Notes under the pieces: generated by a model
What the model was told of the DNA's origin: nothing
Database searches by the model: none
What the model saw: the letters and a program-made list of their open reading frames with translations, nothing else
From: a candidate division KSB1 bacterium
GTDB taxonomy: Bacteria > Zhuqueibacterota > JdFR-76 > DREG01
DNA length: 13,170 bases
NCBI GenBank assembly: GCA_022566355.1
Contig: JADFJB010000123.1
Location: 1 to 13,170 of the forward strand
Reading direction: 5' to 3'
Part shown: positions 3,875 through 6,283 of the stretch, piece by piece
Position numbering within the stretch: position 1 is the stretch's first letter
Layout: each line of letters starts with the position of its first letter
Program-made: the position numbers and the translations under genes

Positions 3875-4714
3875 ATGAGATACCCTTACGAATCATATCA
3901 ATTAGGTTTAAGCGCGCGGATGACGCCGGCGGTTAAATGGCTTTTAATTTCCAATGGTGGTGTGTTTTTACTGCAACAGCTTCCTTTCATAGGGTTGAAT
4001 GCCATTTTCGGACTAAGACCGACACAGGTTATCGACAATTTTATGATCTGGCAATTCGGCACCTATCTGTTTCTACATGGTGGACCACTTCACATAATTT
4101 TTAACATGTTTATCTTGTGGATGTTTGGCAGTGAAGTGGAAAGAACCCTTGGAACGCGGGAATTTTTAAAATATTACTTTATAACCGGGATAGGAGCCGG
4201 GGTTATAGCTTTTCTTTTCAATATTGGAAGTGAAATTACTATAATCGGGGCGTCCGGTGCAATCTATGGCGTTTTGCTAGCCTTCGCCTTGCTGTTTCCC
4301 GAACGTGTTATCACGTTCTTACTCTTTTTTATTCTACCTGTTTCCATGAAAGCCAAACATTTAGTAATAATCATTACGTTATTTTCGGTTTATTCCGCAC
4401 TTACCAATCTTTTCGGCCCCAGTGATGGGGTTGCCCATTTTGCTCATTTAGGAGGTTTGGTAATCGGCTATTTCTACTTTAAAGCGGATTGGCGAATTGA
4501 ATCGACCGTGAGACGGTTCTTTAAAAAGAGCAAACCAACCCCTGGTTCGAATATGAAGGTGCATCGAAGTGAACAGAGCCCATCCTTCGAAAAGCAAGTG
4601 GATGAAATATTAGATAAAATCAATGAAATCGGTTATGATAAACTTTCGCAGGCCGAAAAGAATATATTGAAACGAGCAAGCGACAACCTCTCCAAAAAAT
4701 CAGACTCTGAATAA
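3875..4714 (+). CDS. Rhomboid family intramembrane serine protease with C-terminal DUF6576-like tail
   Basis: This 279-aa polytopic membrane protease cleaves other membrane proteins within or next to the bilayer. The Ser-His dyad is visible: GASG with S127 and AHLGG with H191. The transmembrane helix containing HGGPLHIIFNMF supplies the oxyanion-hole pattern H73-x3-N77. Hydrophobic helices lie at about 20-38, 57-85, 98-117, 123-142, 144-157, 162-180 and 186-203, in keeping with a six- to seven-helix rhomboid core. After a basic linker comes a soluble tail, FEKQVDEILDKINEIGYDKL at about 239-258. Its acidic helix followed by LSQAEKNILKRAS is typical of DUF6576 tails on rhomboids of the Bacteroidetes and related groups. 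The start at 3875 has a weak AGG; an internal Met16 is possible but would cut into the usual N-terminus. The next gene follows in the same frame after the TAA, probably as an operon partner. Confidence 0.9.
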   Translation: MRYPYESYQLGLSARMTPAVKWLLISNGGVFLLQQLPFIGLNAIFGLRPTQVIDNFMIWQFGTYLFLHGGPLHIIFNMFILWMFGSEVERTLGTREFLKYYFITGIGAGVIAFLFNIGSEITIIGASGAIYGVLLAFALLFPERVITFLLFFILPVSMKAKHLVIIITLFSVYSALTNLFGPSDGVAHFAHLGGLVIGYFYFKADWRIESTVRRFFKKSKPTPGSNMKVHRSEQSPSFEKQVDEILDKINEIGYDKLSQAEKNILKRASDNLSKKSDSE

Positions 4715-4729
4715 AATAGGTTCGATATC

Positions 4730-6283
4730 CTGGATACAAAGAATTTACATTATCCCACAACGATAATTTTCCTGTGGATCATACTCTTCGTTTCAATACT
4801 GTTCAGAACAGGTGAATTATCAGGCCAAGAAAAAATTCAGTTGACCGTTTATGGTTCTGAACAAAGGGATATTGTTGTTCCCGCAATAAAGATATATGGC
4901 CTGGATTTTATTGAGGTTGGCGCATTTTCCAGATTAGTGAAAGCGAGGACTTACTACAATGATTTAGCAAAGAAGATCGTAATATACCTTGGAAATCATA
5001 AGATCAAAGTAACTGCTCTCAATCCATATGTAATGATCGATGATAAGATTTACCAAATGCCAATCAGTACCGAGTTTGACGAGGATGGCATCTGGGTGCC
5101 TGTTAAGTATTTCTTTGATCTGATTAAAGATATCTCACCAGTGCCTATTTCCTACCAAAAGGATAAATCAATTATTTTAATGGTCAAGGAAGGCACCAAT
5201 GTCCATTCGATTATTACTGAGGAAAAAATCAATGGATACTTGATCCGGATCGCAACATTTAAGCATTTCCAATCTTCCGAGCTTGCGGTTCGATTGATCG
5301 GAGGTTGGCTTTACCTTGATATTGTCGGGGGTATTGTAGATACTACCAGGCTGTCTTTATTAGGATCGAATAAGCTGCTACGAAAGATGATCCCTGTACA
5401 ATTTTCTGAATCTGCCCAATTATCGTTTAAATTACGAAAAAAGATTGAAAGGAATGATGTTTCCATTTCGAGCTCCGAGAATGAAATACTTCTGTCAATT
5501 CGGACATCCGAAGAATTGCCGGAAGATATCTTAGTCGATTTGGTGTCGGAAAGAAAAAAATGGCTAATCGATAAAATTATCATCGACCCGGGCCATGGCG
5601 GAAAGGACCCGGGAACGATTGGCCCCGGGAAATTATACGAGAAAAATATTGTTCTGGATATTGCAAAAAGATTAAAAAAACTTCTGGTGGATAAACTCGG
5701 TGTTGAGGTGTTACTAACACGAGACAAAGACAAGTTTGTTGATCTCCGGCTAAGGTCTTCCTTTGCAAATAATAATAAAGGTAAGCTGTTTATTAGTATA
5801 CATGTCAATTCTTTTCCACACCGAAGAGCATATGGAATGGAGACTTATGTTCTCGGGACTGCCAGAACAAAAGAAGATAAATTATTGGCCGAAAAAGAGA
5901 ACTCTGTGATTAAGTATGGAGATTCCTGGGCACCATATTCGGACCTTAGCAATGAAAATTCGATTTTACTGGCTATAGCAAGAAATTCGTTTGAAGTTGA
6001 AAGTCAAAATATAGCAGCAAGGGTTCAAAGTTTTGTAAAAAAAGATTTGGGAACGAAAAATCGAGGAGTAAAACAGGGACCTTTTCAAGTATTGGTTGGT
6101 ACATTAATGCCAAAAATTTATGTAGAGGTTGGGTATATTACTAATAATCGCGACAGAAGTAATTTGAGAAAAAAGAGCTATCGACAAAAAATTGCTGAGA
6201 CCATTTTTAAAGGGATCAAGGAGTTTAAGCAGAATTCAGAAAGCCAAATATATGGATCAATGGGTTCATCGTTAAATCGTTGA
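4730..6283 (+). CDS. Exported N-acetylmuramoyl-L-alanine amidase (Amidase_3), likely CTG start
   Basis: The enzyme cleaves the bond between muramic acid and the stem peptide of peptidoglycan in the periplasm, for daughter-cell separation and wall remodelling. Numbered from CTG 4730 (517 aa), a signal peptide with basic n-region and core TIIFLWIILFVSILF comes first. Next is a copper-amine-oxidase-N-like beta domain (about 45-155), then an AMIN-like beta domain (about 165-260), and Amidase_3 at about 279-499. Zinc ligands are H289 in IIDPGHGGKDPG, E304 in YEKNIVLD and H358 in ISIHVNS. The catalytic Glu is E466 in IYVEVGYITN. The first conventional start is TTG 4841, which would remove the whole signal peptide. 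No ATG, GTG or TTG lies in frame between the rhomboid stop (4712-4714) and 4841. CTG 4730 has AGG at 4718-4720 nine bases upstream. It is probably translated by coupling to the rhomboid gene, 15 bases before. The C-terminal limit is firm; the start is inferred. Confidence 0.85.
   Translation: MDTKNLHYPTTIIFLWIILFVSILFRTGELSGQEKIQLTVYGSEQRDIVVPAIKIYGLDFIEVGAFSRLVKARTYYNDLAKKIVIYLGNHKIKVTALNPYVMIDDKIYQMPISTEFDEDGIWVPVKYFFDLIKDISPVPISYQKDKSIILMVKEGTNVHSIITEEKINGYLIRIATFKHFQSSELAVRLIGGWLYLDIVGGIVDTTRLSLLGSNKLLRKMIPVQFSESAQLSFKLRKKIERNDVSISSSENEILLSIRTSEELPEDILVDLVSERKKWLIDKIIIDPGHGGKDPGTIGPGKLYEKNIVLDIAKRLKKLLVDKLGVEVLLTRDKDKFVDLRLRSSFANNNKGKLFISIHVNSFPHRRAYGMETYVLGTARTKEDKLLAEKENSVIKYGDSWAPYSDLSNENSILLAIARNSFEVESQNIAARVQSFVKKDLGTKNRGVKQGPFQVLVGTLMPKIYVEVGYITNNRDRSNLRKKSYRQKIAETIFKGIKEFKQNSESQIYGSMGSSLNR

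Follow-up and report, generated by a model that had tools for sequence, protein, structure and literature searches.

Probable near-cognate initiation of a rhomboid-linked cell-wall amidase gene in a KSB1 bacterium

We analyzed a stretch of DNA of 13,170 nucleotides (the window) in which a rhomboid protease gene is followed by a gene for an N-acetylmuramoyl-L-alanine amidase. Comparison of this junction with its relatives indicates that the amidase is quite probably translated from a non-canonical, near-cognate codon lying just past the rhomboid stop. CTG at 4730 is the somewhat favored start codon, and the adjoining ATC at 4727 is a tentative second choice.

The rhomboid–amidase junction

The features of the junction are as follows.

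3875–4714, + strand: rhomboid protease gene (Rhomboid and DUF6576; Pfam PF01694, E 3.5e-30, and PF20216, E 9.2e-8), ending in TAA at 4712–4714
4718–4720, + strand: AGG, a weak Shine-Dalgarno-like match in the sequence; the anti-Shine-Dalgarno complement is matched by AGGT only
4727–4729, + strand: ATC, second candidate start codon, +12 from the rhomboid stop and 12 codons before the hydrophobic core
4730–4732, + strand: CTG, favored candidate start codon, +15 from the rhomboid stop and 11 codons before the core
4730–4825, + strand: predicted signal peptide (from the translation and a gapless alignment with genome G002), probable cleavage LSG/QEK
4763–4798, + strand: hydrophobic core IIFLWIILFVSI, mean hydropathy 3.2
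4841–4843, + strand: TTG, the first conventional start codon, past the signal peptide and without a Shine-Dalgarno sequence at working distance
4730–6283, + strand: amidase gene; Amidase_3 domain at about 5576–6220 (Pfam PF01520, E 1.2e-52)

From 4715 the amidase frame reads NRFDILDTKNLHYPTTIIFLWIILFVSILFRTGELSGQEKIQL; it is open and is the same frame as that of the rhomboid. The earlier note had claimed that this frame holds no ATG, GTG or TTG before TTG 4841, and re-reading the sequence from the rhomboid stop (4712–4714) onward proved this correct. That the two genes share one frame is likewise true in the window, with no stop between them after the TAA. The leader reads NRFDILDTKNLHYPTT-IIFLWIILFVSI-LFRTGELSG/QEK, with a strong hydrophobic core inside. 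Its placement ahead of all conventional starts, also claimed earlier, held up: the core is present in the translation and its position is conserved in relatives. ATC 4727 abuts CTG 4730 on the 5' side, and both are near-cognate codons. The AGG at 4718–4720 leaves a spacer of 6 bases to the ATC and of 9 bases to the CTG, the latter as the earlier note had described. Both spacings fall in the observed Shine-Dalgarno range, and the shorter is commoner, which gives a slight lean to ATC.

The identity of the enzyme was assessed from its domains. The Amidase_3 domain scored 178.9 bits against a curated cut-off of 27 (Pfam PF01520), and the PDB relatives of the protein include AmiC (4bin) and AmiA (8c2o). 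It scored under every NCBIfam equivalog cut-off, and its N-terminal region gave a weak Cu_amine_oxidN1-like match. H294, E309, H363 and E471 (frame numbering) are invariant; from family knowledge, we take these residues to be catalytic. Given the hydrophobic core and the cleavage-like site, the best explanation is that the amidase is an exported cell-wall hydrolase. A gene caller using TTG 4841 would drop the export signal and misplace the amidase in the cell.

Elsewhere in the window, a short Peptidase_M24 C-terminal fragment lies at 1737–2030 on the + strand and is overlapped by a HEAT-type-repeat-like frame on the other strand (1660–1872). The region 1660–2030 looks like a decayed or rearranged one.

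Comparison with relatives and control genes

The window's own genome is called G000 and its family f1. G002 was the only family member found with the amidase gene, and the two amidases are 56% identical. No ATG, GTG or TTG occurs in the G002 amidase frame before codon 43, where a GTG aligns with the window's TTG 4841. The G002 leader, which ends in SRA/QD, aligns with that of the window with no gaps over 40 codons, from the rhomboid stop to the cleavage region. The two candidate codons are present in swapped order: G002 has CTG as codon 5 (+12) and ATC as codon 6, and the window has ATC as codon 5 and CTG as codon 6. The Shine-Dalgarno match is weak in G002, too. The amidases of G004, G005 and G006, from the same order, have conventional starts. 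As a side observation, a PHP-domain-like gene follows the rhomboid in G004 and G006 (L034 and L035), a position that the amidase itself occupies in the window's family.

The strongest comparative support for a non-canonical amidase start comes from genus g31. Two species of this genus, represented by G038 and G041, have amidases that are 73% identical and share GGAGGCG, four bases and then CTGAAAGTTCG. Six bases therefore separate the GGAGG from the CTG, which opens LKVRL and then the core. No conventional start precedes the core in G038. In G041, a TTG lies four codons after the CTG, without a Shine-Dalgarno sequence at working distance, and the aligned codon of G038 is CTA. Since the CTGs of g31 lie well downstream of the rhomboid stop (149 bases in G038 and 79 bases in G041), their use would draw on the Shine-Dalgarno sequence in front of each, rather than on rhomboid coupling.

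We surveyed 64 loci with both rhomboid and amidase, looking for a start 3–25 codons before the core. Across the phylum, a rhomboid ortholog lies directly upstream of the amidase, and in the surveyed relatives the signal peptide is at the same place. An ATG was present in this interval at 49 of the 64 loci, and no conventional start was present at five (G000, G002, G013, G038 and G042). The ATG starts of the relatives lie at a median of +11 bases from the rhomboid stop and 8–9 codons before the core. The distance in the window is similarly short (+12 or +15), and ATC 4727 and CTG 4730 both fit the place of the relatives' ATG. The earlier note had proposed aligning orthologous junctions for a conserved CTG or an ATG. 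The answer was mixed: most loci carry the ATG, G002 carries none and has the CTG and ATC exchanged, and the CTG is kept within g31.

The remaining two loci were less clear. In G042 (L020), an in-frame ATC stands 11 codons ahead of the core, and GGGAG lies seven bases upstream of this ATC. The sole conventional start of G042, a GTG, is 26 codons upstream and falls within the rhomboid gene; because of this GTG we do not count G042 as a firm case. In G013 (L057), which contains GGAGGGAG, no conventional or near-cognate start except AGG was found before the signal peptide; an assembly indel or an unusual start is possible. A long open frame in G010 and G027 (L222 and L223) had been considered as an amidase fusion and was rejected, as an in-frame gene lies downstream in an ordinary operon. 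We named this gene murI (glutamate racemase) by eye from its sequence.

Two families served as controls. For BamA, a conventional start preceded the core at all 28 usable loci; a 29th locus was cut by a contig edge and left out. For TolB, one of 19 loci lacked such a start. The amidase rate of 5 of 64 (6 counting G041) is higher than both, although we claim no enrichment at such numbers. Separately, TTG or GTG is often the only conventional start close to the signal peptide in the TolB genes of the phylum (L162–L180), and the TolB gene of G036 has no conventional start 2–25 codons before its core. Packed envelope operons may commonly contain weak starts.

The base rate in the window's own genome was determined in a 413-kb sample, consisting of 20 stretches of 20 kb and the window, with 251 long non-overlapping genes. 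A hydrophobic core was defined as a 12-residue mean hydropathy of at least 2.3. The amidase was the sole gene of the 251 with a core wholly upstream of its first ATG, GTG or TTG, and its arrangement is therefore beyond chance. When 400 kb of G038 were scanned in this way, one doubtful match came up among 266 genes. CTGs preceded by a Shine-Dalgarno sequence upstream of first starts numbered 6 of 64 in G038 versus 124 of 3294 overall, and 1 of 20 in G000, sites too few to establish an excess. A pattern search for the 16S 3' tail in this genome gave only scattered one-mismatch matches, and the rRNA was not located.

These comparisons suggest a general use: non-canonical starts can be sought comparatively, through signal peptides that are conserved and yet precede all conventional starts.

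Alternative readings and the proposed mechanism

Three other explanations of the junction were weighed. One is that TTG 4841 is the real start of an unexported amidase, or yields a second, cytoplasmic form. This TTG is the first conventional start, and the GTG of G002 at the aligned codon could be an internal start. However, starting there would delete a signal peptide that is preserved between the two family amidases and in the surveyed relatives, and the TTG has no Shine-Dalgarno sequence nearby. We consider this very unlikely. Another is a base error or a recent mutation, such that the true or ancestral window sequence has an ATG. The genome is a draft in 213 contigs, and the missing start of G013 could itself be an indel. 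A local sequencing error is nevertheless unlikely because G002, a separate assembly, also lacks ATG, GTG and TTG in the same gapless layout. In addition, a CTG with a Shine-Dalgarno sequence is common to two species of g31, and the genome scan met no other such gene. Taken together, this evidence makes an error or recent mutation highly improbable.

The earlier note had also raised low-level readthrough of the rhomboid TAA, which would yield a rhomboid–amidase fusion with the signal-peptide core as a further membrane segment. In both G000 and G002 the two genes are in the same frame with no stop between them, and the topology of such a fusion would presumably be sensible. Against this, the frame of the amidase relative to the rhomboid is random in 63 relatives (25/19/19), and their rhomboid stops are mixed (TAA, TGA and TAG in 27, 24 and 12). 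The junction residues are wholly different between G000 and G002, the junction RNA fold is unremarkable (z -0.38), and the relatives' ATG sits after the rhomboid stop or overlaps it. The readthrough claim is thus not supported, and of the three explanations we give it the least credence.

Initiation at a near-cognate codon after the rhomboid stop is the reading we prefer. What the earlier note had proposed, initiation at CTG (or ATC), stood insofar as a non-canonical start is needed, the place fits and CTG is plausible; the choice between CTG and ATC was left undecided. CUG initiation is strongly discriminated against in E. coli (PMC11497404), and evolutionary switches to CUG are very rare (2 of 61,358 AUG starts; PMC5622118). 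We therefore kept ATC open and held our confidence below a firm level. The initiator tRNA would read the CTG or ATC as formyl-Met, and ribosomes that had just terminated on the rhomboid TAA would reinitiate at the amidase start (termination-reinitiation). Because the Shine-Dalgarno match of the amidase is weak, such a supply of ribosomes by rhomboid termination is likely, and coupling of the amidase start to the rhomboid stop is plausible. As an outcome, a normal amidase with its signal peptide would be made at a low, rhomboid-linked level, and the output may be sensitive to IF3. In E. coli, reinitiation at non-AUG codons has been demonstrated with anticodon-mutant initiator tRNAs, and excess IF3 inhibits reinitiation, more so without a Shine-Dalgarno sequence (PMC2268962). 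The initiation itself, the precise codon used, its coupling to the rhomboid and the low output are inferred from sequence comparison.

The standard start of the rhomboid-linked amidase was apparently lost on more than one occasion, and we hypothesize that this recurrence was under selection. If so, the choice of start codon would serve to set the dose of a cell-wall hydrolase. A more specific and unlikely version is that the amidase of the phylum repeatedly replaced its ATG with a near-cognate codon, and that this was selected because it restrains, in an IF3-sensitive way, a hydrolase that could kill its own cell; in f1, the dose would also be tied to rhomboid translation. The replacement codons would be CTG in g31, CTG or ATC in f1 and perhaps ATC in G042.

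Comparison with known systems

AmiA/AmiB/AmiC-type amidases consist of an Amidase_3 catalytic domain and an export signal, as does the window amidase. The window amidase differs from them in its N-terminal region and in that its gene adjoins a rhomboid gene.

The gene infC, for translation initiation factor IF3, starts at ATT or ATC for a known autoregulatory reason, and it served as the positive control. In all six genomes examined (G000, G002, G013, G038, G041 and G042), infC lacked a conventional start at the right place, so the approach recovers the textbook case. The start appears to be ATT in five genomes and ATC in G000 (L153, contig C67), where the sequence is AAAAGGAGTGCTCAT ATC AAA; the organism of the window thus apparently uses ATC as the start of one gene or more. 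The infC and amidase genes are alike in having a near-cognate start other than ATG, GTG or TTG that was deduced by comparison. They differ in that most of the genomes show a good Shine-Dalgarno sequence at infC, whose start has its autoregulatory reason, whereas the match at the window amidase is weak.

A further parallel is sigR of Streptomyces, an operon gene whose rare start, GTC, sets how much protein is made (PMC5472188). Non-canonical starts are repressed by IF3, and for the sigR GTC this repression was shown experimentally (PMC5472188). Like sigR, the amidase would be an operon gene with a rare start that gene callers misannotate. The GTC of sigR, the upstream gene of its pair, is backed by experiment, whereas the amidase is the downstream gene and its start is predicted from the sequence. 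This kind of non-canonical start is already known from the ATT/ATC of infC and the GTC of sigR, and the amidase would be a further instance of it.
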